A stretch of DNA of 64,000 bases from Quillaja saponaria. Lineage: Eukaryota > Streptophyta > Magnoliopsida > Fabales > Quillajaceae. This document shows positions 1,182-49,702 of this stretch, piece by piece. The position numbers were made by a program, and so were the translations under genes. The DNA lies in assembly GCA_029379385.1 (NCBI GenBank), contig CM055612.1, positions 16,988,001 through 17,052,000 on the forward strand, written 5' to 3'. The number at the start of each line of letters is the position of its first letter. The first letter of the stretch is position 1. The notes below the pieces were generated by a model that worked only from the letters and a program-made list of their open reading frames with translations, was not told the DNA's origin and made no database searches.

Positions 1182-1330
1182 GGTTTTAAGCCAAATTTGG
1201 GGCTCTTTGCTCTCTAAATCTAGAAGGAGGTGATGGTAGCACTCAGCTGCAAGTTCATGAAAAATTTTGATGGGTTTCTTTTATCTCTTTGGTATTGGAT
1301 TGAAGGGAGTTTTGATTGTGACTCGGAGGC
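1182..1330 (+). ncRNA. MIR159: miR159-like hairpin 1 (decayed, promoter lost)
   Basis: Foldback with the putative mature strand on the 3' arm at 1294-1314, core TTGGATTGAAGGGAGTTTTG. Its first 15 bases equal the miR159 core, but the 3' end carries T where the paralogs have C (GAGCTCCG to GAGTTTTG), a pattern of C-to-T decay. The 5' arm (about 1198-1218) still pairs, now largely through G-T wobbles; T1213 faces A1299. The TATA box found in the other five units is absent because the upstream DNA is CACTA-derived. It is probably not expressed. A short reading frame runs through the hairpin (start about 1230) but is not convincing as a protein. Confidence 0.65.
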
Positions 1331-3433
1331 CATGAATATATCTTACTCTTTTTTTCTTTTCTTTTTTTCATTTTTGGATTACTATAGAACTCTCACAAGC
1401 ATATATAACTCTATCAATTTCTCTTCAGTTTCTATTTAGATTTAGTACCCTGCGACGTACAAATTGTTTTTTGACACATTATTAATTAATTTCTTACATT
1501 GGCAGACAAGAAAATTATTAATTTATTTTGTTAATATTCGCACATATGTACTCTTTTCAAAAGAGGATCACTGGTTTTTATTTTTTATTTTTTTGGTGTT
1601 TGATTAAAAGCTAGAGATCCTACCCACAACAAGGAGGTGAAGGATAATTGATTTCTTTCAATTGTAGACAAAAAAAGCTTTAATTCATTGTGCTCATAGG
1701 AGATACATAAGTTATTACTAGTATTAGTATTAGTCTTTTATATTCTCTTCTATAAAATTTTAACAAATTCTTATATGCAAATCATCAAAACATAAAAGTA
1801 TTTAGCCTTATTAATAATCCACCAAGTTGGAATACAAAGAAGAAATATACGCATTAAAACATTAAAACAGAATTTACGAGTTCAGTTTTAATATCATATA
1901 AATATTTTATTTATTTTTTATAAATGTTAAACATAATATAATTTTGCCTACATGAATTAATTTACTAATACATATTACCAACTTAGGAAAATAAATTAAT
2001 AATTTAAATTTATTTAATATAGTCACACCTACAAAATATTCAATTTAATCTTCATAATATTAAATATAATATAATATAATTATACCGACATTAATTAAAT
2101 TACTAAAATATTGATATTATATATTAACAACCTAGGAAAATAAAAATAAAAATTTGAAATTTATTTAATACAGTCACGCCTAGAAAATGTTTAATTTAAT
2201 ATTTATAATATAATTATTTCTTCATTAATAAGATTATTTATATATTGATATTATATATTAACAACTTTGGAAATAAAATTAATAATTTGAAATTCATTTA
2301 ATATAGTCACATTTACAAAATATTATATATTAATTAGTGTGTTTTAGTGATACATCACACGTTTTGGGGTTTTAATTGACTTTTTAACTAGATTTAAATG
2401 CATATTAGTATGACCTATCAAAATATTGAAAACTCAATTCAATTTTCAATTTTTTTATATTTTTGAAAAGAGAAAAAAGAAAAGAATATAAAAGAAATCC
2501 AAACTAACCAAATCTGTCCTGGGTGGTCCAACTTACACATTTCAATCAATAAAATATATTTATGGTGCAAATTAGTGTTTCTCTACGAACCAAATAAAAG
2601 TCTAACCGTTCAAGTCGATTAGATTTTTTTTATTTTTGTGAAATGCAAATTTGGTATCAATCCATGTAATTAATCTCCACTATTTCTTTTATTTCATTAA
2701 TAATTACAATATTATAAACATAACTGTATATTTCATGAAAAAAAATGGACAATGAAAAAAAAAAAAAAAAAACATATTATTAAATTACTTGTTATGGCTC
2801 TCTTACTTGCTTCATATATATCTTTTCTAGAATTTTGGTATATGTAATAGAGATTTAAGGTCTCTTTTGCATATTAGTGGTCTTTTTTTTTTCAATACCA
2901 TTAAAATTTTGGTTAACATATGTACAATTATAATTAGATTTTCTCTTGAAAACAATTTTATAAATAAACTCAAAATCAAATAAATGGATTTCTAGTTTCT
3001 TCAACCATCTTGTTTCTAATTTTACATTGCCAAATAAAATTCAAACTTTTTTAACTTATTGATATCAATACATTTTTCTTACACTACAATTAAATTTTCT
3101 CTTTCTCTATAGGATTTATTTTTAATGATATCTTAGAGATACATGTTAAGGTTTAATAGTTGAAAATTAAATTTAAAAAAAAATAGTAATCCATTAATTA
3201 CTTAGCACTTAATCATTATCAAGTTAATAGATGATTAAAAAAAAATACATATACCCTTTAACAAATAATAGTGTTCAACCGAACAAGATGATTAAGTTTT
3301 CGATAAAATTTGCTCGACCTAGCAAAATTTATTTGATTAAAATTTTACTCGATTTTTGAAGTCAAAAATTTGTGACGATATAAAATTGTACTTAATTAAA
3401 AACTAAGTTAGTCATGATTGCTTACTTCATTAA

Positions 3434-3459
3434 TTGGGCCTTATCCCACAATGGGCCAA
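3434..3459. promoter_or_regulatory. GGGCC/GGCCC near-palindrome (site II-like)
   Basis: TTGGGCC and GGGCCAA face each other across about 12 bases in unit 1; unit 2 has a cleaner version at 17065-17090 (TTGGCCC and GGGCCAA). TGGGCC/GGCCCA is the core of plant site II elements, which TCP factors bind. It lies 370 bp from the minus-strand gene fragment, on its downstream side, so a promoter role for that fragment is unlikely. Function is unproven. Confidence 0.3.
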
Positions 3460-3831
3460 TAATTATTTAGAACAAAAACTGAGAATTGGATACCATAAAT
3501 TCAAGTACTTTTATGATCTTCTTATCCATTGTTTTTCTCACAACTCATTACTTTTTTTTATAAGCAATTGGATATATATTGATGACGTCATCCTTGTTCC
3601 ATGTAAAAATTATGCCTAGCATCTCACCCACCTTTACTGTCTTCAACAAATCAGCTTTTAACAACTCATTACATTATTTTATTCTCCTTGCTCCCTCCTC
3701 CTAGTGGATCCATTTGGGCATGAGTTCAATATGTCAATAGCAACTTGAAATATGATCAAATAGACAAACATTGTTAATAATAAAATAATTATTTTTTAAA
3801 AAAATAATAAGAAGAAGAATTTATAGATGTA

Positions 3832-4262
3832 CACACCGTAACAAAAAGAACATGTAGGCATGTTCACAATTGTAAAGCCTACTTTCCAGTATTCGTAGAC
3901 AGTACAGCCACATATACAATCTCTAGGTATGGTGCCAGGGTCTTTACCTAAATTGTAAAACTTGGGAGAAAGGCTCGTAGTATGGTTCAAAGGTTTCTCT
4001 GATTGAGAACCATCATCAGTCTCCTCTTCCTTTATCTCTAAACATACATTGAAAACAAAACTAAGGAAAAAAAATAGTTACAAACAATTTTTTATGAAAT
4101 CAAAATGAAAACTTCTAATTTGAATTACAATGAATAATACCTTTGATGTATCATTGATTTAATTGGTTGATAAAGAAAACTTGCTTCTCAAATTAATGTC
4201 ATAATTTTCATCGCATTTGTCTTCTTCAACTACTCTGGTGATCATGGATCACACATAACAAG
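3832..4262 (-). pseudogene. Minus-strand gene fragment with Cys-rich exon (unit 1)
   Basis: On the minus strand two exon-like stretches can be joined. Exon I (about 4262-4145) encodes VVEEDKCDENYDIN and ends at NDTSK before a GTATTA donor. Exon II (about 4055-3838) begins IKEEETDDGSQ and contains KDPGTIPRDCICGC and then MPTCSFCYG, ending at a possible GTGTGT donor. The acceptor reading TTTAGAG/ATAAAG keeps phase. The two CxC/CxxC-like pairs suggest a small metal-binding or Cys-rich region, but I do not recognise the family. Exon I contains a stop (TAA). Related copies are at 17481-17648 and 51655-52080. Probably a captured or duplicated host gene fragment, now decayed. Confidence 0.45.
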
Positions 4263-9141: not shown

Positions 9142-9174
<33 letters not shown>

Positions 9175-9474: not shown

Positions 9475-9505
<31 letters not shown>

Positions 9506-13523: not shown

Positions 13524-13951
13524 CATATTGCAACTTTTTTTCTTAAATGACATTACTTTTATTGTGTAGTTTGAATTGTTAATAACTTTGATATTGTTGT
13601 TTCAGTACTAGCTGCTGTTATGACTAAACTAATGTCTTTAAGAATTCTTTTTCTTTTTCTATTATGTCATAACTAATTAGGTTGTGTTATTTAATATTGA
13701 TTGAAGTATTGATACCCAAACAAAAATCTTATGTTCTTATAGTATTGAATTGTTCTTTTTATATTGTGGTATTGGATTTAGGATTTTTGTTTTGTATGGA
13801 TGAATGTATATTTACAGGTGAAAGATATTTTACCTTGATCATCTTTTTTTACTTCTATAATAAAAAAACAAAAAACCTGGACTATCTACGATGGGCAACC
13901 CGTATTCTATAACTATTTACGACGAATAGGACATTTCATTATTTACAACGA

Positions 13952-14128
13952 ACACTTATTATCTACGACTGGAAATGCCCATCCAAGATAATTTGGCACC
14001 GTTTTGTGCAAAAACTTATCCAAGAGACTTATATTATCTAAGATGGGATACCCATCATGGATATATTTTGGCGCAAAATGGCGCCAAATTATCTAAGACG
14101 GCCATTTCCCGTCGTAGATAATAAGTGT
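13952..14128. repeat. CACTA subterminal palindrome (copy I)
   Basis: Left arm 13952-14010 and right arm 14071-14128 are inverted copies, with ACACTTATTATCTACGAC on the left and GTCGTAGATAATAAGTGT on the right, around a 60-base centre that itself carries CTAAGATGGGATACCCAT. The repeated ATCTAAGACGGG words are the expected kind of subterminal transposase-binding repeats of CACTA elements. Confidence 0.85.
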
Positions 14129-14217
14129 CCGTTGTAGATAGTGGATTATCCACAATGGATTTATTATTGTTGTAGATGCTTATTATTAGTGACAATGTTT
14201 TCTACATCGGGTCTATC

Positions 14218-14319
14218 TGTGATTCAGCATAACTATTAGACTCTTTGAGGCAATGCCTAACTATTAGGCTGGGTCACTCGTTGGCCCTGTGATTCAGCAT
14301 AACTATTAGACTCTTTGAG
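14218..14319. repeat. Rearrangement junction with templated filler
   Basis: A 32-bp sequence starting TGTGATTCAGCATAAC occurs at 14218-14249 and again at 14288-14319. Between them sits GCTGGGTCACTCGTTGGCCC (14268-14287), identical to a piece of the S-family gypsy LTR (as at about 18804). The first three repeat bases are CACTA end sequence and the rest is MIR-unit sequence. Confidence 0.85.
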
Positions 14320-14889
14320 TCCATCAAGTTACTACTGTCATATATCAAGTTGTTCTCGATTTAACAAAACCATTTTACCAAAGAACAACTCCAAACTAGA
14401 GAAGGAAACTTCAATTGTTTTTGTTCAATGGTTCATATAGCCATAGCCCTTTGGTCTACAATTGCTTCTTCAATTATATGCCTCTAACCCTAATTGAATA
14501 TGAAAAAGGATACTGATCAAATGAGGTAAGTCAAGCCCAGAACAATGGGTAAAAATAAAAAATAATAATAATCATTGAAAAATGGAAAGTCTCTCCCTTA
14601 AATAAAAAGAAATTAGAAAGATAAGTATTTCTCAAAACGAAATGGAAACAAATGCATAACAGAAGGAAAGTTTCCCTCGTAAATTAAACAAATTAGAAAT
14701 CAAGTCTTTCTCAAAATAAAAGAAAACTTATAATGCATAAAAGAAAAGGAAAATCATATGCCCATTACAACATTTAGGAAATTAACTAAATATTAATTAT
14801 GCAAATTGGATGCTAAAAGGAAAGTAACTAATGTATTTCATCATTCAAGTTCAACAGTTCATATTACATCTAGACCATTTGCCTTAGCC

Positions 14890-14898
14890 TATATATAA
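14890..14898 (+). promoter_or_regulatory. TATA box of miR159-like gene 2
   Basis: TATATATAA within GCCTATATATAACTCAC, 72 bp upstream of the hairpin. It is conserved in units 2 to 6, with about 350 bp of conserved upstream DNA that includes an AACCCTAA (telo-box-like) word. The position suits a Pol II start at about 14920. Confidence 0.6.
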
Positions 14899-14961
14899 CT
14901 CACAAACACACTTAATATAGATATACGTATTTAGGTTAACTCTTATTAGAGTTTTTGATTT

Positions 14962-15110
14962 GGTTTTAAGTAAAATTCAGGGCTCTCTGCTCACCAAATC
15001 TAGAAGGAGGTCATGGTAGCACTTAGCTGCAAGTTCATAAAAAACTCTGATAGGTTACCTTTATCTCTTTAGTATTGGTTTGAAGGGAGCTCCGATTGTG
15101 GCTATGAGGC
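14962..15110 (+). ncRNA. MIR159: miR159-like hairpin 2
   Basis: Putative mature strand at 15074-15094 on the 3' arm, core TTGGTTTGAAGGGAGCTCCG, one base (T for A) away from the miR159 core TTGGATTGAAGGGAGCTC. The 5' arm from C14978 (CAGGGCTCTCTGCTCACCAA) pairs with it except at four or five positions, and A14993 faces T15079. Pairing continues below the duplex and towards the loop, giving the long foldback typical of MIR159/MIR319 precursors. As I remember it, rice miR159d has nearly this sequence. The family's known targets are GAMYB-type mRNAs. A TATA box lies upstream. Expression is unproven. Confidence 0.75.
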
Positions 15111-17064
15111 TATGAATATCTCTCACTCCTTTTTTTATTTTTTATTTTTGGATTACTGAAGAACTCTCGGAGGTATATATAACTCTCTCAATTTCTCTTT
15201 AGTTTCTATTTAGATTGAGTACCCTGCTACTTACAAATTATGTTTCGACACGTTATTAATTAATTTCTTACATTGGCATACAAGAAAATTATCAATTTCT
15301 TGTGTTAATATTGGCACATATGTACTCTTTTCAATTGAGGATCAATGGTTTTTTTGTTTTTTGGTGTTTGATTAAAAGCTGGAGATCGGACCCACAACTT
15401 GGAGGCGAGAAATAATTGATTTCTTTCAATTGTAGACAAAAAAAGCTTTAATTTATCATGCTCATAGGAGATACATAAGTTATTACTACTATTAGTATTT
15501 ATCTTTTACATTCTCTTATTTAAAATTTTAACTAATTTTTATATGCAAATCAGCAAAACATAAAAGTATTTAGCCTTATTAATAATCTACCTAGTTGGAA
15601 TACAAAGAACAAATATACGCATTAAAACACAATTTACGTCAATATTTTAAAATTTGAAAAAAAAAATATTGATTTACAAGTTAAGTTATAATTGTGGTTT
15701 AACCAATGATATCATATAAATATTTAATTTACTTTTTATAAATGTTAAACATAATAAAATTTTGCCTACATGAATTAATTTACTAATATATATTACCAAC
15801 TTAGGAAAATAAATTATTAATTTAAATTTATTTAATATAGTCACACCTACTAAATATTCAATTTAATCTTCATAATATTAAATATAATATAATTATACTG
15901 ACATTAATTAAATTACTAAGATATTGATATTTTATATTAACAACCTAGGAAAATAAAAATAAAAATTTGAAATTTATTTAATACAGTCACACCTAGAAAA
16001 TGTTTAATTTAATATTTATAATATAATTATTTCTTCATTGATAAGATTATTAATATATTGATATTATATATTAACAACTTTGGAAATAAAAATAATAATT
16101 TGAAATTCATTTAATATAGTCATAGTTACAAAATATTATATATTAATTAGTGTGTTTTAGTGATACATCACACGTTTTGGGATTTTAATTGACTTTTTAA
16201 CTGGATTTAAATGCATATTAGTATGACCTATCAAAATATTGAAAACTCAATTCAATTTTAATTTTTTAGATTTTTGAAAAGAAAAAAATAAAATAAAATA
16301 AAAGAAAGGAAATCCAAACTAACCAAATCTACCATGGGTCATCCAATTTACACATTTCAATCAACAAAATATATTTATGGTTCAAATTAGTGTTTCTCTA
16401 CCATCCAAATAACGGTCTAAACATTCGAGTCGATTAGATTTTTAAAAAACCAATTTATTTTTGTGAAATGCAAATTTGGTATCAACCCATGTAACTAATC
16501 TCCAATTAGTGTTTTATTTTTTTTCAATACCATTAAAATTGTAGTTAACATATACACAATTATAATTAGATTTTCTCTTGAAAACACTTTTATAGATAAA
16601 CTCAAAATCAAATAAATGGATTTCTAGTTTCTTCAACCTCTTGTTTCTAATTTTATATTGCCAAATAAAATTCTAATTTTTTAACTTATTGATATCAATA
16701 CATTTTTCATAAACTACAATTAAAATTTCTCTTTTTTTATGGGATTCTTTTTTAATGATATCTTAGAGATACATGTTAAGGTTTAATGGTTGAAAATTAA
16801 ATTTTTTTTAAAAAGGTAATCCATTAATTACTTAGCACTTAATCATCATCGGGATAATAGATGATTAAAAAAAAATACATATGCACTTTAACAAATAATA
16901 GTGTTCAACTGAACAAGATGATTGGGTTTTCGATAAAATTTGCTTGACATAACCAAATTGATTTGATTAAAATTTTACTTGATTTTTGAAGTCAAATTAT
17001 CTGTGACGATATAAAATTGTACCTAATTAAATACTAAGTTAGTCATGATTGCTTATTTCATTTA

Positions 17065-17090
17065 TTGGCCCTTATCCCATAATGGGCCAA
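17065..17090. promoter_or_regulatory. GGCCC/GGGCC palindrome (site II-like), unit 2
   Basis: TTGGCCC and GGGCCAA as a 7-bp inverted repeat around CTTATCCCATAAT-like DNA, matching the TGGGCC core bound by plant TCP factors. A counterpart is at 3434-3459. Confidence 0.3.
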
Positions 17091-17480
17091 TAAAAACAAA
17101 AACTGAGAACTAGATACAATAAATTCAAATACTTTCATGATCTTCTTATCCATTGTTTTTCTCACAACTCATTACATTGTTTTAATAAGCGATAGGAAAT
17201 ATATTGATCACATCGTCCTTGTTCCTTGTAAAAATTATGCCCAACATCTCATCCACCTTTACTGCTTTCAATGACTCAGCTTTTAACAACTCATTACACT
17301 ATTTTATTCTCCATTTGCTCCCTCCTCCTCGTGGATCCATTTGGGCATGAGTTCAATATGCAAATAACAAACAGAAATATGATCAAATAGACAAACTTTG
17401 TTAATAATAAAATAATTATTTTTAAAAAAAATAATAAGAAGAATAATAATTTATAGATGTAAAGAAGCAAAAGAAAAGAC

Positions 17481-17648
17481 GTACACACCGTAACAAAAAG
17501 AACATGTAGGCCTGTTCACAATCGTAAAACCTGCTCTCTAGTATTCCTTGATAGTACAACCACATATACGTTCTCTAGGTATGGTGCCAGGGTCTTTACC
17601 TAAAATTATGAAACTTGGGAGAAAGGTTCGAAGTATGGTTCAAAGGTT
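17481..17648 (-). pseudogene. Minus-strand Cys-rich gene fragment (unit 2), truncated
   Basis: Only the second exon-like part survives, with GTIPRERICGCTI where unit 1 has GTIPRDCICGC, so one Cys has changed to Arg. Its upstream side (higher coordinates) is removed by the 17648 junction with the S LTR. Decayed fragment of the same unrecognised gene as at 3832-4262. Confidence 0.45.
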
Positions 17649-19528: not shown

Positions 19529-19533
19529 CGATG
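19529..19533. repeat. Right target-site duplication CGATG of S2
   Basis: Identical in position and sequence to 7139-7143. Confidence 0.8.
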
Positions 19534-27196: not shown

Positions 27197-29248
27197 ATGG
27201 ATCTTGATTGTAGTTGGATGGATCACCCACGAGCTGTTCGTGGGACATTGACAGTTGAATTTAAGTCTGGAGTTGAAGCTTTTCTCGACTTTGCGTTTCA
27301 TCATCTGACATGTGTCAATTCTGGAAAAATTAGATGTCCTTGCTTGGTTTGTTATCATACGAAATTTCTAGATCAAGATGATGTTACTGTTCACTTATAC
27401 AAAAATGGCTTTGTTAAGAATTACAATAACTGGACCCTTCATGGCAAGAGTTGGATTGATCAACCTTCAGTAGATAATGTAATATTTGATGATTTTGGAG
27501 AAACTAGTTAGATAGAAGACATGGTAATAGATGTTGCTAGGCCATATTTCAATTTTTTTGAAGAAGATCCAAATCCTGATATTGCCAAGTTTATAAAAAA
27601 TTTATCAGACGCAGATGAGCCATTGTGGGAAGGTTGCAAGACACACTAAGCTAACTGCAGTCACACAACTTTTGAATTGTAAATTTGAATTCAATGTGTT
27701 TGAGAGTTGTTATTATCAGTTTATGACAGTATTTAAATCTATGTTGCCAGATAGGAATAAACTGCCACTAAACTTTTATGAAGCGAAGAAGGTAGTTAAA
27801 GTTTTGGATCTCGGGTATCAAAAGATAAATGCATGTCCAAATGACTGTTTATTGTACTACGACAATGACAAATCTAAGGCAGAATATTATATTTGTGGTT
27901 GTCCCCGGTATAAACCAAAACAAAACAAAAATCAATCTAATGTACCCGAAAAAGTGGCACGTTATCTACCAATAATACTAAGACTTCAAAGACTTTATAT
28001 GGTAAAAAGCACCGCTAGACATATAAGGTGGCATAAGTTTGGCATTCGTGAAAAAGAAAACATGATTGTCCATCCGTTAGATGTAGAGGCTTGGAAACAC
28101 TTTGACAATACTTTTCCTGAGTTTGCAGAAGAATTCAGGAATATTCGTTCTGGTCTATCCTCTGATGGTTTCACTCCATTTGGTAATTCATCATCTCCTT
28201 ATTCTTACTGGTCAGTTTTCATTACACCATACAATTTGTTGCCAAGATTATGCATGAATGAGAAATATTTGTTCTTGACATTAATAATTCTTGGTCCATT
28301 TCATCCTGGTAAGAATATAGACATTTATTTAAGGCCATTGGTTGATGACTTGAAAAAGTTATGGGTGAAAAGTGTGATAACTTATGACGCGAGACTTAGA
28401 AATCACTGTAGGGGCTAATGGCAAACAGAAAGTAAATAAAGCTGCATATACCTTAAATAAGAAAGAGAAAAAATTGGTTTGCTGATAGGTTAAAAATTAA
28501 AAGTTTCCAGATGGGTATGCTTCCAATTTGTCCTGATGCGTGAAAGTCAATGAATGCAAGTTATATGGTATGAAAAGTCACGATTGTCATGTTTTTATGG
28601 AGAGATTGATACCTATAGCATTTCGAGACTTTGTAAAAGATTGTATTTGGGATGCTTTGACAGAATTTAGCACTTTTTTCAAGGATATATGTGCAGTTGA
28701 ATAACGGGTTGGACAAATAGAATTACTTGAGAATAACAATGTGGTCGCCTTGTGCAAAATTGAAAAGATATTTGTTCTAGCTTTTTTTGAGTCTATAGAA
28801 CATCTAATCATTCTTTTGGCCTATGAAGCTAAAGTTGGCGGTCCAGTGCAATGCCGATGGATGTATCCATTTGAGAGGTAACATATACAACTCAATAAAT
28901 GTAATATATGTTACAACATATATTAAAGGTGTATTTTATAATCTTTTTAGGTGTATGCATAGCCTTAAAAAGAAGGCTCGTAATAAAGCACGGGTCGAAG
29001 CATACACTTTAGAGGAGAATTCAAATTTTTGCTACCACTATTTTGCTAGCAACATTCAAACCAAGTTGAGACAAGTAAGCCACAATGATGATGGTGGAGA
29101 TAAGGAGGAAGACCACCTTTCTATTTTTTGTTATTCAGGAAGAACAATTGGTCGTGCTAATTTTAGAGATCTAGAAGATAATGAATATAAAGCAGCAAAG
29201 CTATATGTTCTCCTGAATTGTGACGAGCTGAGTCCATATGTGGAGTAA
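27197..29248 (+). pseudogene. CACTA transposase: Transpos_assoc, Transposase_21, DUF4218 (copy II)
   Basis: Starts MDLDCSWMDHPRAVRGTL and contains the transposase-associated domain (VEAFLDFAFHH, GKIRCPCLVCYH, VTVHLYKNGFVKNY). The first frame stops at TAG 27509-27511. A 2-base loss near 27642 shifts frame, after which Transposase_21 runs open to 28385 with LSSDGFTPFGNSSSPYSYW. There about 0.55 kb, including the second catalytic Asp block (NDFHAYAMLSGW in copy III), is deleted between TATGACGC and GAGACTT. DUF4218 follows to 29248, broken by the shared TGA at 28483-28485. It ends at a plausible donor, GTGGA/GTAAAT. The product would have been the nuclear CACTA transposase. Confidence 0.85.
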
Positions 29249-29320
29249 ATTTCTAAATACATAATCTTATTATTGTTGAAGATATATTCTAATCAGATTA
29301 TTGTTAAATTTTTGTTGTAG

Positions 29321-30339
29321 CCAATACGATGCAATGCTACGATAACAAAAATATGGAATTTCTGATCAACAAATTCAAAAATTACGTGATAAGAATTTTG
29401 TAAATTGGTTTCTTGATCTTGTAAGAAACATATTCTAATCAAATTCATGTTGTGCATTGTTTTAACTATAATATATTTTTCTTTAATTGATAGGTGATGT
29501 ATGATTCAACTATTGATAAACAAATAAGGGATATAAGGCATCATTTGAGTAGGCGTGTTAAAACGTATAAAGGATATGTTGTCAACAGATTCAATTTTCA
29601 TAGACAAGAATATGGAAAATATAAGAAAATGATGAATAGTGGTGTATGTGTGAAGGGTGAATGTTACAATGAAAATGAAGTTGAGTGGTATGGTATGTTG
29701 ACTGAAATAGTAGAACTTGAATACCATGGGAAGAATATTGTTGCACTGTTCAAATGTAATTGGTATGATCCAGAGAAAGGGATTAAAGTAGACCTTAAAC
29801 ACGGTTTTATTGAAATCAATCATCAATCATGTTACAATAAATATGAGCCATTTGTGCTGGCAAAACAAGCTACACAAGTATATTATATGTCATACCCTTC
29901 TCCAAAGAAAGAAAGACAAGATTGAGAGGTTGTTTGTAAGATAAAGGTTAGAGACAATGTTCATGCTGCAATGGTAGAGTTAGAAGATAATGAACCAGTG
30001 CTTATAGTTACAGAATGCTTACAGGAGGATCTAACTAGTTTTGTAACACCAGTTCTTCCTGATCATGATCTAGATCTTCCAGGAATCCTAGTTCGTGATG
30101 GTTCATCGAAAGAGGAAGATGATGGTGAAGATATAGACAAACTTAGGAAGAGAAAAAGAAAAATTAGAAGACATGCCAAAGATTTAGAAGAAGAAAAAGA
30201 AAAAGAGGAAGATGAATATGACGACAATGATGACGATGAAGAGGAAGAATATCAAGAGGAATATGATGAAGATGAGGAAGATGAAGATGAGGAAGAAGAA
30301 GAAGAGGAAGAGGAAAATGAAGAAAAGGATAATGAATGA
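29321..30339 (+). pseudogene. CACTA transposase C-terminal exons: DUF4216 and acidic tail (copy II)
   Basis: A short exon (29321-29420) reads QYDAMLR then a stop where relatives have Gln, continuing KYGISDQQIQKLRDKNFVNW, and ends at GTAAGAAA. The next exon, from 29494, encodes DUF4216: RRVKTYKGYVVNRFNFHRQE, VCVKGECYNENEVEWYGML and CNWYDPEKGIKVDLKHGF. TGA at 29923-29925 interrupts at RQD. The frame reopens with ELEDNEPVLIV and ends in a basic RKRKRKIRR patch followed by about 45 mostly Glu/Asp residues. The acidic tail is present in all three copies that reach this point. Confidence 0.8.
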
Positions 30340-30525
30340 ATTTATCTCTTTGCTATTAAGCTTGTCTATTTATTTTAATTTGTACCTCATGTATTAATAT
30401 GATTAATATTATTGTTAGAAAACTTGACATTTAATGCATGTTTATATATTATAAATCATATTGCAGTTTAATTTATTATAAATTATTTGACATAAGTTTT
30501 GACACTTTTTTCAAATAATGTTGTT

Positions 30526-31601
30526 ATGGGGAGAGGTACGATAGGACAAGATGTTAGATCTTCTGGAGGTCGTGGTAAAGGAGATTCATCATCCTCGAGG
30601 GGCCGCGGTATAGGAGATTCATCATCGTCAAGAGGTCATGGTAGAGGTGATTCATCATAGTCGAGAGGTTGTGGTAGAGACGATTCACCATCCTCAAAGG
30701 ATCATGATAAAGGTGATCTGGTTGCTTCAGGTGCAGGATGTACCAAACTTGGTGCCTCAGTACCAAGTGAAGGAGATGGAGGAGGTGATGACAGAGGTGT
30801 TGTGTTTGCATCATCAATTGTAGGACATAGTAGAGTTGATGCGTCCTTTAGTAATGGAGTTCAGGCGACATGCGATGACTCAGATGCTTTGATCTTATAT
30901 GGAGATACATTACCTATAGGAGATCCTTCTGTAGGCAATACATCCATCAGTATTAACATGTCTTAAATAAATTCATTTATCTATCATTATTTTTATATTG
31001 ACTTTGTGTTTAATTTAGGTGAGAACAATGCTGTGTTACCTCTCGTAGAGGTAGAGGCACTAATAAGACTTATCTTACTACTACTATTAATAGTGATCAT
31101 CCAGAAATAAATATTTGTGAACGGTAAATCTTAAAAATTATATTTTTTGGAAAGATATGTGTGATATTTTTAGATCAGAAGATTAGAAAAAATTATCTGA
31201 GATTAGAAAGAAAAATAGATTGGCTAATGAAGAAACAATTAATCATGTGGGTAGATCTAGACCGATACCTATTCATGCTAAGGACTTGGTACAAATATGT
31301 GAATTTTAGTATTTTACCATGTTATTCGAATTAGATTCTAAACTCATACTAATTTATAATTACTAATATGCTAAATACTTAGGAGGAAACCCTTGGAAGA
31401 CCAGTGAAAGATATTGAGGTTTTTAATAAAACTCATGAAGTACATACATTCTAATCATAGGTTGTGTTATTTATATACATTCTATTCATATAGTTAGATA
31501 ATTATAGGTTATGTTATTTACAAGTTCAATTTTTGTTTGAAATTATCAGGCTAGTGATGATGATCAACATGATGATGATGCCATTATTGGTGATAACTAA
31601 T
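30526..31601 (+). pseudogene. Second CACTA gene, Transposase_24-like with RG repeats (copy II)
   Basis: This is the only copy that keeps an ATG, giving MGRGTIGQDVRSSGGRGKGD. Four 11-residue GRGRGDSSSSR-type repeats follow, interrupted by a TAG in unit 3, then a region with VGHSRVDASFSNGVQ. After a likely intron (acceptor near 31018) come short exons. One holds KNRLANEETINHVGRSRPI, resembling the nRxk...hxtGSksf block of PF03004; another, GRPVKDIEVFNKTH, resembles its LGRpptplEvFxktH block. An Asp/His-rich DDDQHDDD end leads to TAA at 31599-31601. Known CACTA elements often carry such a second gene for a DNA-binding accessory protein. Confidence 0.65.
30568..30699 (+). repeat. 33-bp coding minisatellite, 4 units (copy II)
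   Basis: Units of 11 codons, G-R-G-x-G-D-S-S-S-S-R, followed by a diverged partial unit (DHDKGD). Confidence 0.85.
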
Positions 31602-32022
31602 CAAATTGCAACCTTTTTTCTTAAATGACTTTACTTTTATTGTGTAGTTTGAATAGTTAATTACTTTGATTTTGTTGTTTCGAAACTAGCTACTGTTATG
31701 ACTGAACTAATATCTTTAAGAATTCTTTTTCTTTTTCTATTATGTCATAACTAATTAGGTTGTGTTATTTAATATTGATTGGAGTATTGATACCCAAACA
31801 AAAATCTCATGTTCTTATGGTATTGAATTGTTCTTTTTATATTGTGGTATTGAATTTTGGATTTTGGTTTTGTATGGATGAATGTATATTTATAGGTGAA
31901 AGATATTTTGGCATGATCATCTTTTATTACTTCTATAATAAAAATAAAAAAACCTGGACTATCTATGACGGGCAATCTTCTATAACTATTCACGACGGGT
32001 GGGACATTTCATTATCTACAGC

Positions 32023-32203
32023 GGACACTTATTATCTATGACGAGAAATGCTCGTCTTTGATAATTTGGCGCCGTTTTGCGCTAAAACTTATCCAAGACC
32101 CTTATATTATCTAAGACGGGATACCCGTCGTGGATATATTTTGGCTCAAAATGGTGCCAAATTATCTAAGAGGGGCATTTCCCGTCGTAGATAATAAGTG
32201 TCC
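32023..32203. repeat. CACTA subterminal palindrome (copy II)
   Basis: Arms 32023-32082 and 32143-32203 are inverted copies (GGACACTTATTATCTATGAC against ATAATAAGTGTCC) with a 60-base centre. The same structure occurs in copies I and III. Confidence 0.85.
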
Positions 32204-32355
32204 ATTGTAGATAATGGATTATCCACAACGGGTTTATTACTATTGTAGATGCTTATTATTAGTGACGGCGTTTTCTACGTCGGGTCTATCTGTGACGGTT
32301 TCCGGTCGTAGATGTCTCTATGATGGTATTTTTGATTATCTAAAACGGTTTTTGC

Positions 32356-32385
32356 CCGTCTCAGATAACTTATTTTCTGGTAGTG
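32356..32385. repeat. Right terminal inverted repeat of CACTA II
   Basis: Ends TTTTCTGGTAGTG, the inverse of CACTACCAGAAAA, a typical CACTA terminus. It is followed by TATTAAATC, MIR-unit sequence. Confidence 0.85.
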
Positions 32386-33504: not shown

Positions 33505-33655
33505 GGTTTTAAGCCAAATTCGGGGCTCTCTGTTCTCTAACTCTAGAAGAAGGTGATGGTAGAACTTAGCTGCAAGTTCATGAAAAACTCTGATGGGTTA
33601 CCTTTTATCTCTTTGGAATTGGATTGAAAGGAGCTCTGATTGTGACTCTGAGGCC
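33505..33655 (+). ncRNA. MIR159: miR159-like hairpin 3 (type B)
   Basis: Putative mature strand at 33618-33638, core TTGGATTGAAAGGAGCTCTG: the miR159 core with A for G at one central position and T near the 3' end. The 5' arm from C33521 (CGGGGCTCTCTGTTCTCTAA) pairs with it; T33536 faces A33623. The mature strand is identical to that of unit 5, making a second lineage beside type A. The central change lies near the position opposite a target cleavage site, so target choice could differ from type A. Confidence 0.75.
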
Positions 33656-35827: not shown

Positions 35828-35977
35828 GGTTTTAAGCCAAATTCGGGGCTCTCTGCTCACCAAATCTAGAAGGAGGTGATGGTAGCACTCAGCTGCAAGT
35901 TCATGAAAAACTCTGATGGGTTACCTTTATCTCTTTAGCATTGGTTTGAGGGGAGCTCCGATTGTGGCTTTGAGGCC
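35828..35977 (+). ncRNA. MIR159: miR159-like hairpin 4 (best preserved arms)
   Basis: Putative mature strand at 35940-35960, core TTGGTTTGAGGGGAGCTCCG, type A with one extra A-to-G change that keeps pairing as a wobble. The 5' arm from C35844 (CGGGGCTCTCTGCTCACCAA) pairs at 16 of the first 20 positions, counting G-T. A35859 faces T35945. Below the duplex AAGCC (35834-35838) pairs with GGCTT (35966-35970). Towards the loop GGTAGC pairs with GTTACC. This is the clearest of the six foldbacks. Confidence 0.78.
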
Positions 35978-37897: not shown

Positions 37898-37920
37898 ACT
37901 ACAAAGCTAACACTAACTAT
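37898..37920. repeat. Filler patch at the unit 4 / CACTA III junction
   Basis: ACTACAAAGCTAACACTAAC and the next bases match 34601-34623 and 48365-48386 (upstream flank of a MIR unit), not the sequence expected on either side. It is a short patch copied from elsewhere in the array. Confidence 0.7.
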
Positions 37921-39472
37921 GATTGTCCATCCGTTAGATGTAAAGGCTTGGAAACACTTTGACAATACTTTTCCTGAGTTTGCAGAGGAATCCAGGAATA
38001 TTCATTCAGGTCTATCCTCTGATGGTTTCACTCCATTTGGTAATTCATCATCTCCTTATTCTTGCTGGCCAGTTTTTGTTACACCATATAACTTGCTGCC
38101 AGAAGTATGCATGAATGAGAAACATTTGTTCTTGACATTAACAATTCCTGGTCCATTTCATCCTGGTAAGAATATAGACATTTATTTAAAGCTATTGGTT
38201 GATAACTTGAAACCGTTATGGGTGAAAGGTGTGACAACTTATGACGCATCACTTAAGCAAAATTTTATCATGAAAGCTGCATTGTTATGGACAATTAATG
38301 ACTTTCACGCATATGCAATGCTTTCTGGGTGGAGTACACATGGTAAGTTAGCCTGTCCTTATTGTATGGAGAATACTAAGTCATTCCAACTTAAACACGG
38401 TTAGAAGCCATGTTAGTTTGATTGTCACTGTGAGCTCTTACCACTTGATCATCCATTTAGAAAACAAAATAATGCTTTCAAAAAGAACAAAGTAGAATAA
38501 GATTCACCACCACCACAGTTATTTGGGAAATAGGTGATCGAAAGAGTGAGTACTTTCAAACAAGTTAAATTCGGTAAAGGGTACAAAGAGATTGATGGGT
38601 TCAAGCATACTCATAATTGGATAAAGAAGTCTATATTTTGGGAATTGGATTATTGGCCTACAAATCTTATTCGACATAATCTAGATTTAATACATTATGA
38701 AAAAAATGTTTTGATAATGTATTTAATACTGTTATGGACTTCAAGGGCAATTCCAAAGATAATCTCAAAGCACGTATTGATTTAGGGATTTTGTGCAAGC
38801 GTCGAGACTTAAAAATCATTGTAGAGGCTAATGGCAAACAGAAAGTAAATAAAGCTGCATATACCTTAAATAAGAAAGAGAAAAAATTAGTTTACTGATG
38901 GATTAAAAATTCAAAGTTTCATGGTGGGTATGCTTCCAATTTGTCTCGATGCGTGAAGGTCAATGAATGCAAGTTATATGGTATGAAAAGTCACGATTGT
39001 CATGTTTTTATGGAGAGATTGATACCTATGGCATTTTGAGACTTTGTAAAAGATTGTATTTGGGATGTTTTCACAAAACTCAGCACTTTTTTCAAGGATA
39101 TATGTGGGCAAATAGAATTACTTGAGAATAACAATGTGGTCTCCTTATGCAAAATTGAAAAGATATTTGTTCCAACTTTTTTTGATTCTATGGAACATCT
39201 AATCATCCATTTGGCCTATGAAGCTAAAGTTGGCAGTCCAGTACAATACCGGTGGATCCATTTGAAAGGTAACGTATACAACTCAATAAATTTAATATAT
39301 GTTACAAGATATATTAAAGGTGTATTTTATAATCTTTTTAGGTGTATGCATAGCCTTAAAAAAAAGGCTCGTAATAAAGCACGGGTCGAAGCTTCTATAG
39401 TCGAAGCATACACTTTAGATGAGATTTCAAATTTTTGCTACCAATATTTTGCTAGCAACATTCAAACCAATT
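37921..39472 (+). pseudogene. CACTA transposase, Transposase_21 and DUF4218 parts (copy III)
   Basis: Open from IVHPLDVKAWKHFDNTFPEF through LSSDGFTPFGNSSSPYS, FLTLTIPGPFHPGKNIDIYL and, unlike copy II, the second Asp block TINDFHAYAMLSGWSTHGK and CPYC. TAG at 38401-38403 and 38414-38416 interrupt before FDCH; the latter is shared with copy I, where relatives have Trp. DUF4218 follows with HNWIKKSIFWELDYWPTNLI, but a 1-base loss near 38712 shifts frame and TGA occurs at 38896-38898 (shared by all copies). The last open part, 39136-39472, ends with LDEISNFCYQYFASNIQTN. Confidence 0.85.
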
Positions 39473-40712
39473 GACAAGTAGGCCACAACGATGATGGTAG
39501 GGATAAGGAGGAAGACCACCTTTCTATTTTTTGTTATTCAAGAAGAACAATTGGTCATGCTAATTTTAGAGATCTAGAAGGTAATGAATATGAAGCAGCA
39601 AAGCTATATGTTCTCCTGAATTGTGACGAGCTGAGTCCATATGCAGAGTATATTTCTAATTACATAATCCTTTTATTGTTGAAGATATATTCTAATCAGA
39701 TTATTAATTGTATTATTGTTATATTTTTGTTGTAGCCAATACGATGCAATGCTACGACAACAAAAATATGGAATTTCTGATCAACAAATTCAAAAATCGC
39801 GTGATAAGAATTTTCTAAATTGGTTTCGTGATCTTGTAAGAAACATATTCTAATCAAATTCATGTTGTGCATTGTTTCAACTATAACATATTTTTCTTTA
39901 ATTGAAAGGTGATATATGGTTCAACTATTGATAAACATATAAGGAATATAGGGCATCATTCGAGTAGGCGTGTTAAAACGTATAAAGGATATGTTGTCAA
40001 TGGATTCAAGTTTCATAGACAAGAATATGGAAAATATAAGAAAATGGTGAATAGTGGTGTATGTGTGAAAGGTGAATGTTAAAATGAAAATGAAGTTGAT
40101 TGGTATAGTATGTTGATTGAAATAGTAGAACTTGAATACCATGGGAATAATATTGTTGCAGTGTTCAAATGTAATTGGTATGATCCAGAGAAAGGGATTA
40201 AAGTAGACCTTAAACACGGTTTTGTAGAAATCAATCATCAATCATGTTACAAGAAATATGAGCCATTTGTGTTGGCAAAACAAGCTACACAAATATATTA
40301 TATGTCGTACTATTCTCCAAAGAAAGAAAGATAAGATTGGGGGGTTGTTTGTAAGATAAAGGTTAGAGGCAATGTTTATGCTGCAATGGTAGAGTAAGAA
40401 GATAATGAACCAGTGCCTATAGTTACAGAATGCTTACAGGAGGATCTAACTGGTTTTGTAATACCAGTTCTTCCTAATGATGATCTAGATCTTCTAGAAA
40501 TCCTAGTTCGTGATGGTTCATCAAAAAAGGAAGATGATGGTGAAGAGATAGACAAACTTAGAAAGAGAAAAAGAAAAATTAGAAGACGTGCCAAAGATTT
40601 AGAAGAAGAAAAAGAAAAAGAGGAAGAAGAAGTTGAATATGAGGAAGTTAAAGATCAATATGAACATGAAGATGAGGAAGAAGAAGAAGAGGAAGAAGAG
40701 AATAATGAATGA
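39473..40712 (+). pseudogene. CACTA transposase C-terminal exons and acidic tail (copy III)
   Basis: After a TGA at 39472-39474 the DUF4218 end continues to about 39648. A short exon near 39736-39836 reads QYDAMLRQQKYGISDQQIQK without the stop seen in copy II. DUF4216 follows from about 39910 (RRVKTYKGYVVNGFKFHRQE) with a stop at 40081 and CNWYDPEKGIKVDLKHGF; TAA at 40332-40334 interrupts. The last part has a RKRKRKIRRRAKD patch and a Glu-rich tail to TGA at 40710-40712. Confidence 0.8.
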
Positions 40713-40897
40713 ATTTATCTCTTTGCTATTAAGCTTGTTTATTTATTTTAATTGGCACCTCATGTATTGATATGATTAATATTATTGTTAGAAAACTTGA
40801 CATTTAATGCATGTCTATATATTATAAATCATATTGCAATTTAATTTATTAGAAATTATATGACGTAAGTTTTGACATTTTTTACAAATAGTGATGT

Positions 40898-42028
40898 TAA
40901 GGGGAGAGGTACGATAGGACAGGATAGTTAAATCTTGTAGAGGTCGTGGTAGAGGAGATTCATCATCCTCGAGGGGCTGCGGTAGAGGAGATTCATCATC
41001 CTCGAGCGGCTGCGGTAGAGGAGATTCATTATCCTCGAGGGGTCGTGGTAGAGATGATTCATCATCTTCAAGAGGTCGTGGTGGAGGAGATTCATAATCG
41101 TCGAGAGGTCATGGTAGAGGCGATTCACCATCCTCTAAGGATCATGATAGAGGTGATCCGGTTGCTTCAGGTGCAGGATATAGCAGACTTGGTGCCTCAG
41201 TACCAGGTGAAGAAGATGGAGAAGGTGATGATAGAGGTGTTGTGTCTGCATCATCGATTGTAGGACATAGTAGAGTTGATGCGTCCTTCAGTAATGGAGT
41301 TTAGGCGACATGCGATGACTCAGATGCTTTGATCTCATATGGAGATGCATTACCTATAGGAGATCCTTCTGTAGGCAGTACATCGATTAGTATTAACATT
41401 TATTTTTACATGTCTTAAATAAATTCATTTATCTATCATTATTTTTATATTAACTTTGTGTTTAATTTAGGTGAGAACAATGCTGGTGTTACAGCTCGTA
41501 GAGGTAAAGGCTCTAATAAGCCTCATCTTACTACTACTATTGATAGTGATCGTCTAGAAATAAATATTTGTGAATGGTAAATCTTAAAAATTATATTTTT
41601 TAGAAAGATATATGTGATATTTTTAGATTAGAAGATTAGAAAAAATTATTTGAGACTAGAAAGAAGAATAGATTGGCTAATGAAGAAACAGTTATTCATG
41701 TGGGTGGATCTAGACCAATACCTATGCATGCTAAGGACTTGGTACAAATATGTGAATTTTAGTTTTTCACCATGTTATTCGAATTAGATTCTAAACTTAT
41801 ACTGATTAGGAGGAAACCCTTGGAAGACTAGTGAAAGATATTGAGGTTTTTAATAAAACTCATATGAAGTACATACATTCTAATTATAGGTTGTGTTATT
41901 TATATGCATTCTATTCATATAGTTAGATAATTAAAGGTTATGTTATTTACAAGTTCAATTTTTGTTTGAAATTATCAGGCTGGTGATGATGATCAGCATG
42001 ATGATGATGTGGATATTGGTGATAACTA
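40898..42028 (+). pseudogene. Second CACTA gene, Transposase_24-like (copy III)
   Basis: Same organisation as copy II, but the start codon is AAG and an in-frame stop follows soon after. The RG repeat block is longer (6 units). Downstream pieces show ENNAGVTARRGKGSNKPHLT, then KKNRLANEETVIHVGGSRPI-like sequence and GRLVKDIEVFNKTH-like sequence, with an Asp/His-rich end near 41995-42028. The block order agrees with PF03004 as I remember it. Confidence 0.6.
40942..41139 (+). repeat. 33-bp coding minisatellite, 6 units (copy III)
   Basis: Six 33-bp units (11 codons each) against four in copies I and II. Units 2 and 3 have GGCTGCGG where the others have GGTCGTGG, so the expansion involved these neighbours. 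Confidence 0.85.
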
Positions 42029-42461
42029 ATCAGATTACAACCTTTTTTCTTAAATGACTTTACTTTTATTATGTAGTTTGAATTGTTAATTACTTTGATT
42101 TTGTTGTTTCGGTACTAGCTGCTATTGTGACTGAACTAATATCTTTAAGAATTCTTTTTCTTTTTTTATTATGTTATAACTAATTAGGTTGTGTTATTTA
42201 ATATTGGTTGGAGTATTAATACCCAAACAAAAATCTCATGTTCTTATGGTATTGAATTGTTCTTTTTATATTGTGGTATTGGATTTGGGATTTTGGTTTT
42301 GTATGGATGAATGTATATTTACAGGTGAAGGATATTTTGGCATGATCATCTTTTTTGACTTCTTTCATAAAAAATAAAAATCAAAACTGGACTATCTACG
42401 ACGGGCAACCCGTCTTCTATAATTATTTACGACAAGTAGGACATTTCATTATCTACAACAG

Positions 42462-42630
42462 ACACTTATTATCTACGACAAGAAATGCTCGTGTTAGATA
42501 ATTTGGTGCCGTTTTGCACGAAAACTTATCCAAGACGCTTATATTATCTAAGACAGGATACTCATCGTGGATATATTTTGGCTCAAAATGGTGCCAAATT
42601 ATCTAAGACGGGCATTTCCCGTCGTAGATA
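42462..42630. repeat. CACTA subterminal palindrome (copy III)
   Basis: Arms 42462-42519 and 42571-42630, inverted, with ACACTTATTATCTACGAC and GTCGTAGATAATAAGTGT at the outer ends. Confidence 0.85.
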
Positions 42631-42785
42631 ATAAGTGTCCGTTGCAATTAATGGATTATCCAAAACAGGTTTATTACTATTGTAGATCCTTATTATTAGT
42701 GACAGCATTTTCTATGTCGGGTCTATCTACCACGGTTTCCCGTTGCAGATGTTTGTATTTTTGACTATCTAAGACGGTTTTTGCC

Positions 42786-42815
42786 CGTCTCAGATAACTC
42801 ATTTTTCTGGTAGTG
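42786..42815. repeat. Right terminal inverted repeat of CACTA III
   Basis: Ends TTTTTCTGGTAGTG; preceded by CCCGTCTCAGATAACTC as in copy II. Confidence 0.85.
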
Positions 42816-43921: not shown

Positions 43922-44071
43922 GGTTTTAAGCCAAATTCGGGGCTCTCTGCTCTCTAACTCTAGAAGGAGTTGATGGTAGAACTTAGCAGCAATTTGATGA
44001 AAAACTCTTATGGGTTACCTTTATCTCTTTGGAATTGGATTGAAAGGAGCTCTGATTGTGGCTTTGAGGCC
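43922..44071 (+). ncRNA. MIR159: miR159-like hairpin 5 (type B)
   Basis: Putative mature strand at 44034-44054, core TTGGATTGAAAGGAGCTCTG, identical to unit 3. The 5' arm from C43938 (CGGGGCTCTCTGCTCTCTAA) pairs with it; T43953 faces A44039. AAGCC at 43928-43932 pairs with GGCTT at 44060-44064 below the duplex. The TATA box and upstream DNA are intact, so it is among the better candidates for expression. Confidence 0.76.
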
Positions 44072-47900: not shown

Positions 47901-48251
47901 TTTCCACTCACAGAGTCCGTAGGACTCATCCCTCTCATGGATAATATTTTTTTCAGGAATCCAATGAATGATGGCGCTGAGTTTGTGACCTACCGATAGT
48001 GTACGGCAAGGTATTTTCCAGGATTTCAAACTTGAAGTTAAGGATAAAAGTTGCAGTCACACTAGAATGGTGGAATATTTGAATTTTGTATGATGCGATA
48101 GTCTAGATATTTGTCTTCGTGTCTTTGTGTGAAATTAGGAATACATATATTGTATTTTGGGTCATGGTTGTTACTTTGTTTTTAATTCAGGGTTACGGAG
48201 GTTTGGTTATCCAATCCTTCAGCCAGTCATGCCTCCGTGAGCGGTGTGACA
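44901..48251 (+). mobile_element. Solo LTR S3 (Ty3/gypsy type), complete
   Basis: A 3351-bp solo LTR, TGTTATAACCC at the start and GGTGTGACA at the end, flanked by ATAAC on both sides, with no retrotransposon coding sequence. Its 3' half resembles the S LTRs (GGCTGGGTCACTCGTTGGCC at about 47695-47714, CCACTCACAGAGTCCG, GCCTCCGTGAGCGG), while the first 1.7 kb is diverged. Frames at 45232-45450, 45506-45775 and on the minus strand at 45647-45868 lie in this LTR; they have no known domains and I do not call them genes. Confidence 0.9.
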
Positions 48252-48460
48252 ATAACTACTTTTACATATATTATCTTTAAAAATTTTCTATAAGGCCAAT
48301 GCTTAGAAAGACACTTTCTTTTATTATCAAATAAACTCTGCCTCTTTTTTTTTTTAGTTATAAGTACAAAGCTAATACTAACTATTATGCACTAAGGTGC
48401 ATTTTTAAAATGTTCATACAATTTAATTATAGTTTTGTTGCTTAGCTGATAGATACGTAA
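48252..48460 (+). repeat. MIR unit 5, right part
   Basis: Continues unit 5 after the solo LTR (ATAACTACTTTTACATATAT), collinear with 34475-34701, to the unit boundary at TAATATTAAATC. Confidence 0.85.
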
Positions 48461-49494
48461 TATTAAATCAATTTGTGCATAAAAAAAAAAATGAGATACT
48501 ACATTATTTATTTCTTCATTTAGTTCTATAGATTTTATTAAAAAAAAAAATACAACCCACTAAAGATAAGCTACCCATAAAAAACTACCAAATAAGAAGA
48601 AGAGGAAGATTATATAGTGCATGTGCATAACTGTAACATGTACGCACGTTATTTTACATAGATGAAAAAGTTATCTCTCTTTTATATTTTTCAAGCTGTA
48701 TAGAAATTAGTATAACAATTTTATTTTTATTGTTGGTACAAAAGGGAATAACATTAAGTAAGAAACAATACAAAGTCTTGGAAACTGAATCCCATCAAAT
48801 CACCCATAAACATATTAGCACTACAACTATGAACAATAAAGAATACATTAATGTTTTTGGATGTAATTTCCCATTTTACTAGCAATTCAGCATAATTATT
48901 AGACTCTTTGAAGCAATGTCTAATGCTGGAAGGAGTCCATCAAGTTACTGCAGTCATATATCAAGTTGTTCTCGGTTTAACAAAACCATTGTACTAAAGA
49001 ACAACTCCAAACTAGAGAAGGAAACTTCAATTGCTTTTGTTCAATGGTTCATATAGCCATAGCCCTTAGGTCTACAATTGCTTCTTCAATTATATGCTTC
49101 TAACCCTAATTGAATATGAAAAAGGATACTGATCAAATGAGGTAATTCAAGCCCTGAACAATAGGTAAAAAATAAAGAAAATAAAAAATGGAAAGTCTCC
49201 CTCCTAAATAAAAAGAAATTAGAAAGAGAATTATTTCTCCAAAAGAAATGGAAACAAATGCATTATAGAAGGAAAGTTTCCCTCCTAAATAAAGAAAAAA
49301 GAAATCAAGTATTTCTCAAAATAAAAGAAAACATATAATGCATAAAAGAAAAGGAAAGTCATATGCCCATTACAGCAATTAGGAAATTAACTAAATATTA
49401 ATTATGCAAATTGGATGCTAAAAGGAAAGTAACTAATGTATTTCATCATTCAAGTTCAATGGTTCATATTACATCTAGACCATATGCCTTAGCC

Positions 49495-49503
49495 TATATA
49501 TAA
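49495..49503 (+). promoter_or_regulatory. TATA box of miR159-like gene 6
   Basis: TATATATAA, only 58 bp upstream of the hairpin, because about 14 bp of leader (ATATAGATATGCAT in other units) is deleted. Confidence 0.6.
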
Positions 49504-49552
49504 CTCACAAACACACTTTATTTAGGTTAACTCTTATTAGAGTTTTTGATTT

Positions 49553-49702
49553 GGTTTTAAGCCAAATTCGGGGCTCTCTACTCACCAAATCTAGAAGGAG
49601 GTGATGGTAGCACTCAGCTGCAAGTTCATGAAATACTTTGATAGGTTACCTTTATCTCTTTAGTATTGGTTTGAAGGGAGCTCCGATTGTGGCTTTAAGG
49701 CC
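49553..49702 (+). ncRNA. MIR159: miR159-like hairpin 6 (type A)
   Basis: Putative mature strand at 49665-49685, core TTGGTTTGAAGGGAGCTCCG, identical to unit 2. The 5' arm from C49569 (CGGGGCTCTCTACTCACCAA) pairs with it; A49584 faces T49670. The lower stem (AAGCC with GGCTT) is kept. A TATA box is present but closer than in the other units. Confidence 0.76.

Follow-up and report, generated by a model that had tools for sequence, protein, structure and literature searches.

Few plant microRNAs (miRNAs) are as conserved as miR159, whose sequence is generally regarded as almost invariant. The genes that encode it (MIR159) are known in tandem: one report covers tandem MIR159 loci in soybean and mentions clusters in maize and sorghum (PMC3481472), and another gives a six-gene MIR159 cluster in maize and two genes in sorghum (PMC2773440). 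Homologous MIR clusters are reported to have generally two to three members and at most eight (PMC2812943). Stem-loops with two conserved duplexes are reported as the most plentiful type in MIR159/319 (PMC3118147), and conifer miR159 is reported to carry TTGGTTTGAAGGGAGCTC (PMC8304282, PMC6683148).

Here we analyze a 64,000-nucleotide (nt) stretch of Quillaja saponaria DNA (C8:16988001-17052000, hereafter the window), together with the 352-Mb genome that was searched, for hairpins that a first-pass annotation had taken for a six-member cluster of miR159-family genes among transposons. We consider it fairly likely that these hairpins are truncated MIR159 precursors, with a mature strand that starts AUUGG, which were spread by segmental duplication and some of which still yield miRNA. 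This estimate blends two parts, of which descent from MIR159 and arrangement in an array are close to certain, and continued miRNA production by some copies has, judged from sequence, roughly an even chance; the competing explanations dispute mainly miRNA production.

MIR159 descent and number of the hairpins

Six paralogous plus-strand segments of 149-151 nt (h1 to h6, Table 1), with a mean column identity of 93%, lie in the window, each with a miR159-like word on its 3′ arm; sequence and alignment verified their positions, paralogy and word as first described. In five copies the 3′ arm reads TTGG(A/T)TTGA(A/G)(A/G)GGAGCTC, and in the first it is TTGGATTGAAGGGAGTTT (1295). The exact canonical 18-nt core on which the annotation relied, TTGGATTGAAGGGAGCTC, has no occurrence in the window, so its claim holds for near-matches and for none of the six as an exact word: four copies are one substitution away, and the other two carry TTGGTTTGAGGGGAGCTC (35941) and TTGGATTGAAGGGAGTTT. 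Its judgement that chance resemblance is very unlikely stands, because TTGGNTTGARRGGAGCTC has 57 genome matches against 0 in the reversed control and TTGGNNTGAAGGGAGCTC has 69 against 0, in match sets that also hold canonical MIR159, MIR319-type words, GAMYB sites and three places resembling long terminal repeat (LTR) elements.

When the plus strand of each segment was compared with 500 dinucleotide shuffles (z in Table 1), three segments folded far better, two weakly better and h1 no better than shuffled sequence. The statement that each copy folds back is thus borne out strongly for three and weakly for two, and for h1 the folding energy is what had been named beforehand as evidence against a hairpin. 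Fixed-register duplex mismatches number 3-4 in the window copies, and the minimum free energy (MFE) structures of h1, h3 and h5 lack the full register. An ‘intact’ filter (exact nt 1-19 mature strand of one of three types, at most 4 duplex mismatches, MFE of -50 or lower) is passed within the window by h6 only. In h1, C>T makes up 7 of the 11 changes from the inferred ancestor. The h1 unit (1116-1840) resembles h3/h5 at 5 of the 8 hairpin sites that divide h2/h4/h6 from h3/h5, and its downstream flank resembles h2/h4/h6 at 22 of 23 scorable sites; because hairpin and flank side with different copies, recombination or conversion is suggested.

The six window copies are a sample of a larger set, so that of the ‘six-gene cluster’ the several MIR159 copies stand and the number does not: joining the window, search matches and pattern matches in the array regions gives at least 86 places, which form three arrays and lie on two chromosomes (Table 1). 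A genome search with h4 gave 106 candidates, of which 40 were scored (91-100% identity), and one with the upstream flank of a contig-1 copy gave 113, of which 40 were likewise scored. The hairpin analysis includes 74 of the places (one, L074, without a mature strand); five AA-type and one AG-type copies outside the 74 were also folded (types refer to mature nt 6-7), bringing those inspected as hairpins to 80. One place, C1:14769468, falls within a stretch alignable with a MIR unit, and five rest on pattern and position only. Each of the 37 first-fetched copies has flanking DNA in common with h4, ranging from some hundreds of bases up to roughly 1 kb (1.35-kb stretch compared), and copies occur in both orientations. 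The intact filter is passed by 31 of the 74 copies, a sample that leans to intact hairpins because 37 were fetched by hairpin similarity and 6 come from the window. Array-variant words are TTGGTTTG, TTGGAATG, AUUGGUUUGAAGGGAGCUC, AUUGGAAUGAAGGGAGCUC and AUUGGAGUGAAGGGAGCUC; five TTGGAATG loci beside the window were considered as GAMYB copies and rejected, the loci being array hairpins.

Family membership was assessed on several features. The window has no Rfam match at the gathering score. At E ≤ 10 there are 13 matches in all, and the best is MIR159 (RF00638), found on the plus strand at 49559 (E 1.6e-5), 14968 (2.6e-5), 35834 (0.0048), 33511 (0.14) and 1188 (3.5) and once on the minus strand at 14966 (E 6.6); h5 (43922) is absent from the matches at this threshold. 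The plus-strand scores of 20-41 bits (best 41) lie below the gathering score of 74, which is a curated cut-off rather than a family trait, and the array form is short. The core is carried by the 3′-arm mature strand, as an exact canonical 18-mer in 9 of 74 copies and as near-matches in the rest. Plant miRNA/star duplexes are expected to have at most 5 mismatches, and in fixed register 69 of the 74 copies have 2-5, three have 6 and two have 12.

The annotation's alternative label, MIR319-type genes that target TCP mRNAs, is very improbable. The two families belong to one superfamily and have a short core in common, but none of the 73 lettered copies (the 74th is gapped) has AC at mature nt 6-7, as would be required for the MIR319 mature strand UUGGACUGAAGGGAGCUCC, and with every mature form in the window the TCP target site pairs worse than the GAMYB target site. 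Eight TTGGACTG words are found elsewhere in the genome (C2:4522756, C4:5072132, C6:13071700, C8:20840831, C9:11413334, C10:31334, C10:11357732 and C14:20316935); these TTGGACTGAAGGGAGCTC words are probably MIR319 genes.

The closest full-length relative found is a predicted MIR159 on contig 11 (L107, C11:16910490), a full-length foldback of -88 kcal with the mature strand ATTGGAGTGAAGGGAGCTCC. Both of its arms align with all six window hairpins (79-87%), as expected of homology to a full-length MIR159 precursor, and its inner ~57 nt (more in two comparisons) are unmatched. In our reading, the array form arose by truncation of the contig-11 gene or a close relative. The loop-proximal second duplex is lacking, the inner ~57 nt of L107 being absent from array hairpins; because this duplex is usual rather than universal in the family, the array form is filed as a truncated MIR159-derived lineage. 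The legume miRNA word AUUGGAGUGAAGGGAGCUCC is identical over 20 nt to the contig-11 gene and to array copies of the AG type; it is among the matches listed in the soybean, common bean and chickpea miRNA literature, and also in carrot and tree peony. We take this word to be the one named miR159 in the legume literature.

Canonical MIR159, TTTGGATTGAAGGGAGCTCTA, is present at C3:9036943 and C4:4607976 in ~190-nt foldbacks of -102 and -101 kcal. A further form, CTTGGATTGAAGGGAGCTCCC, occurs at C7:20930819 (foldback -99 kcal) and at C7:17170277, where the stretches tried gave no good foldback. The MIR159-like foldbacks at C7:20926518 (L106) and C7:20930819 (L051) are 4.3 kb apart and have mature strands CTTGGAGTG... 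and CTTGGATTG....

Variants at nucleotides 6-7 and GAMYB sites

Across copies, mature nt 6-7 are AG, AT, TT or AA. At least four GAMYB genes were found by patterns in which only nt 6-7, or part of them, could vary, and GAMYB genes with other site changes were missed because of this. The gene at C8:27036674 combines two Myb repeats with a C-terminal part like that of GAMYB and the site ELPSNQ, and several of its named relatives are MYB97-like; the other three (Table 1) are labelled GAMYB from a reading of the C-terminal part only. Complementarity to GAMYB mRNAs is best in the AG, AA and TT types and weaker in AT. Over nt 1-19, TT pairs without mismatch with ELPSNQ, AA with ELPSFQ and AG with ELPSLQ (two genes), the ELPSLQ pairing being read from printed bases and the other two scored; AT has no perfectly matched site among the four GAMYB genes. 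The penalty score of AA is 0.5 on ELPSFQ and 5.5 on ELPSNQ, that of TT is 1.5 on ELPSNQ and 5.5 on ELPSFQ, and canonical miR159 scores 3 and 4 in the ELPSFQ/ELPSNQ comparison. Within the window, targets other than the complements that the hairpins themselves supply come to a single weak site, at 25988 (5.5).

AG is the ancestral type at nt 6-7, and AA and TT are derived; because the contig-11 gene has AG as well, only AA and TT count as derived matches. The chance that both would be among three derived dinucleotides drawn from 15 is about 0.03 by a rough hand calculation; we give this figure little weight, since such a draw is hardly random.

The star base opposite nt 6 changes along with it. 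Star base 31 and mature nt 6 (position 117) are A-T in 48 copies, T-A in 24 and A-G in 1, with a gap in 1 of the 74, so that 72 of the 73 lettered copies are paired. By parsimony on a flank tree of 43 copies, this pair changed state six times, which may reflect repeated paired change or gene conversion.

Three loci with LTR-element-like leaders, L047 (C3:11152898), L049 (C4:21091881) and L053 (C14:1123788), contain near-complements of the TT-type miRNA, with ATG starts 24-27 nt past the first base of the site. That the TT type was retained to silence LTR retroelements is nonetheless a quite improbable explanation. TT scores 2.0 against L047 and the h4 form scores 3.0 against L053, but the remaining two loci give TT scores of 4.0 and 5.0, canonical miR159 also reaches 3.0 at L047, the loci are only three and all come from the same pattern, and their identity as LTR elements is a reading without a family match.

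Two observations concern the MYB genes themselves. Upstream of the GAMYB gene that is MYB97-like there is an RPS2-type leucine-rich-repeat frame (L098 3296-4000). Another MYB from this group (P0121, a Quillaja protein) has EFPSNH in place of the usual ELPSNQ, and its miR159 site may be weakened because of this replacement.

Selection, decay and repeat surroundings

Several comparisons count against the reading that some truncated precursors still yield miRNA. Among five window copies (without h1), hairpin identity is 0.899 and flank identity 0.915. The 40 flank-chosen copies diverge by 0.073 in the mature strand, 0.051 in the star, 0.052 over the whole hairpin and 0.081 in the flank downstream, so that the mature strand does no better than flank; the upstream value, 0.035, is biased low because this flank served as query. 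The commonest nt 1-19 haplotype is present in 47.5% of copies; downstream windows average 39%, and 32% of them match or exceed the mature figure (upstream windows, also biased, average 52%). In the six-copy tree the terminal branches look neutral, and of the 56 pairs predicted in the six window copies, star 31/nt 6 alone has changed on both sides. Special conservation of the mature strand was sought in three ways: the hairpin-chosen set misled, and the flank-chosen set has none. A 43-copy set seemed conserved (hairpin 0.056 versus flank 0.10), a signal that is discounted because 37 of its copies were selected by hairpin similarity; among flank-chosen copies the excess conservation of the hairpin over the downstream flank is small and that of the mature strand absent. 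MIR159 descent, the 3′-arm mature strand, the several copies and the transposon surroundings of the first-pass annotation are all upheld, but its ‘gene cluster’ survives as homology only: h1 is a dead hairpin, others are decaying, and the copies change at about the flank rate, so a working gene cluster is conjectural.

Hairpin structure gives a different indication. Set against the mean of neutral placement of the same changes, folding is better in 28 of 38 copies (two of the 40 were skipped for gaps). The difference averages -2.9 kcal over the copies, with a standard error of 0.76, which is too small because the copies are related and not independent. The branch to the TT-type copies h2/h4/h6 folds better than random placement (5/300), in one of eight branch tests on the six-copy tree. 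Past selection on hairpin structure is therefore probable, and on the average copy little or none is now detectable. Most array copies are probably drifting, and some could make miR159 variants.

The strongest competitor, to which we give somewhat less than an even chance, holds that the hairpins are dead passengers, duplicated along with CACTA and LTR blocks and unexpressed, and that GAMYB matching reflects chance plus the shared ancestry of miRNA and target. The lack of excess conservation in the mature strand and the neutral terminal branches are what it predicts, and the duplicated blocks do bear transposons. In a window self-BLAST, MIR units, CACTA blocks and others form overlapping repeat blocks, mostly of 83-94% identity and in varying order; CACTA tnp2 domains are found at 27615 and 37919 (Pfam), and six-frame translation of 14300-21300, which includes a MIR-bearing stretch, yields no Pfam match at E ≤ 0.01. 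Change at two CpG places, where C is altered in 20 of 79 cells and in 81 of 1147 at other C, also fits. Against such passengers stand the share of copies that pass the intact filter (with the lean of that sample), the almost unbroken pairing of positions 31 and 117, average folding better than under neutral placement, and the existence of a matching array variant for each of three GAMYB site types.

The same surroundings raise the possibility, which we think improbable, that repeated and partly inverted hairpin DNA feeds 24-nt small interfering RNA (siRNA) production and methylation, the miR159 identity being incidental. Transposon surroundings, copies in both orientations and the excess of C change at the CpG places are in its favour, but G at these places changed in 7 of 79 cells and other G in 131 of 1543; because CpG G is not changed more than other G, methylation decay of array copies is suggested only weakly. 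Nor would an siRNA source lead one to expect the nt 1-19 match to GAMYB sites or the paired change in the duplex.

Capture of the MIR unit within a CACTA element was considered and is disfavoured, because the unit sits beyond the right end of the CACTA element and two units, near 34.7 and 48.46 kb, have no element at that site. The left ends of both window CACTA blocks were looked for and not found.

Table 1. Hairpins, repeat units, arrays and GAMYB genes (hairpin and repeat positions are those of the window)
Feature	Position	Strand	Details
h1	1182..1330	+	mature-like 1294-1314, star-like 1199-1219; decayed (GGAGTTTT); z -0.03
h2, TT-type	14962..15110	+	mature-like 15074-15094 ATTGGTTTGAAGGGAGCTCCG, star-like 14979-14999; z -2.2; 4 duplex mismatches
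h3, AT-type	33505..33655	+	mature-like 33618-33638 ATTGGATTGAAAGGAGCTCTG, star-like 33522-33542; z -2.7
h4, TT-type	35828..35977	+	mature-like 35940-35960 ATTGGTTTGAGGGGAGCTCCG, star-like 35845-35865; z -5.9; 3 duplex mismatches
h5, AT-type	43922..44071	+	mature-like 44034-44054, star-like 43939-43959; z -4.2
h6, TT-type	49553..49702	+	mature-like 49665-49685 ATTGGTTTGAAGGGAGCTCCG, star-like 49570-49590; z -6.5
MIR-bearing repeat stretch (one example)	14317..17648	.	self-BLAST
CACTA (tnp2) block within duplicated array	27517..32385	+	right end TTTCTGGTAGTG at 32374, adjoins MIR unit directly
Second CACTA block	37915..42815	+	right end at 42804, adjoins MIR unit directly
Array	C1 about 14.73-16.58 Mb		51 places
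Array	C8 16.76-17.10 Mb		15 places
Array	C8 19.43-19.75 Mb		20 places
GAMYB	C1:10696439		ELPSFQ site
GAMYB	C6:17198007		ELPSLQ site
GAMYB	C12:11071010		ELPSLQ site

Other features of the window include near-palindromes at 13929-14151, 32002-32224 and 42439-42661, with arms of 97-111 nt, two of which shortly precede CACTA right ends; the strongest fold in a 150-nt window scan, -62 kcal at 32051, falls in one of them and exceeds the MIR hairpins as sampled there. A direct repeat with an offset of 134 nt lies downstream of a MIR hairpin at 15717-16147, and a retrotransposon gag fragment (PF03732) at about 22065-22270. A Copia element extends from 60159 to past 64000 (L054) with an open frame of 1156 amino acids; a Quillaja saponaria protein matches its open reading frame (60466-63936) at 99% identity across 58% of the frame's length, and 60159-60382 is repeated at 99.1% just beyond the window end, as expected of young LTRs.

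Proposed history and comparison with known systems

The reading that we favour, truncated MIR159 precursors of which some remain productive, would involve the following steps. A short MIR159 form without the loop-proximal ~57 nt would have been carried into three arrays with its flanking DNA and nearby transposons, and mutations at nt 6-7, balanced by the star at nt 6 in the TT type, would have given variants that prefer different GAMYB genes. The least decayed copies may be transcribed and cut by DCL1, yielding 21-nt miR159 variants that slice GAMYB mRNAs, with AG, AA and TT preferring the ELPSLQ, ELPSFQ and ELPSNQ genes, respectively; most remaining copies would be redundant and decaying by drift. 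The stronger proposal, that one miRNA gene radiated to at least 86 truncated copies whose nt 6-7 subfamilies (with a co-varying star base in the TT type), each a perfect nt 1-19 match for a different GAMYB gene, are splitting by GAMYB paralogue through repeat-driven amplification, we regard as rather unlikely.

Drifting copies with four nt 6-7 variants and matching targets allow a direct test of how the target preference of a conserved miRNA changes, and the array allows a test of whether selection favours mass duplication of a MIR gene or repeats merely carry it along. No published report of a Quillaja miR159 array was found in the open-licence literature (subscription papers lay outside this scope). 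Tandem MIR159 is already known, so it is the scale of the array and the target matching at nt 6-7 that look new.

The array and the reported soybean, maize and sorghum clusters are of the same family and arose in both cases by tandem duplication. However, the known MIR159 clusters have six genes at most (by the maize and sorghum numbers given there), compared with at least 86 places in Quillaja, and unlike the crop clusters as reported, the Quillaja array consists of transposon-bearing blocks with variants matched to different GAMYB genes. In addition, the array form is like canonical MIR159 in its core, 3′-arm position and foldback but is ~150 rather than ~190 nt long, and it lacks the loop-proximal duplex of the two-duplex stem-loops described for MIR159/319. 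It differs from the legume AUUGGAGUGAAGGGAGCUCC form in lacking the inner ~57 nt, and most copies have TT or AT at nt 6-7. The conifer miR159 cited above has the same TT at nt 6-7 as the TT type, which, in so distant a lineage, may reflect convergence or chance.

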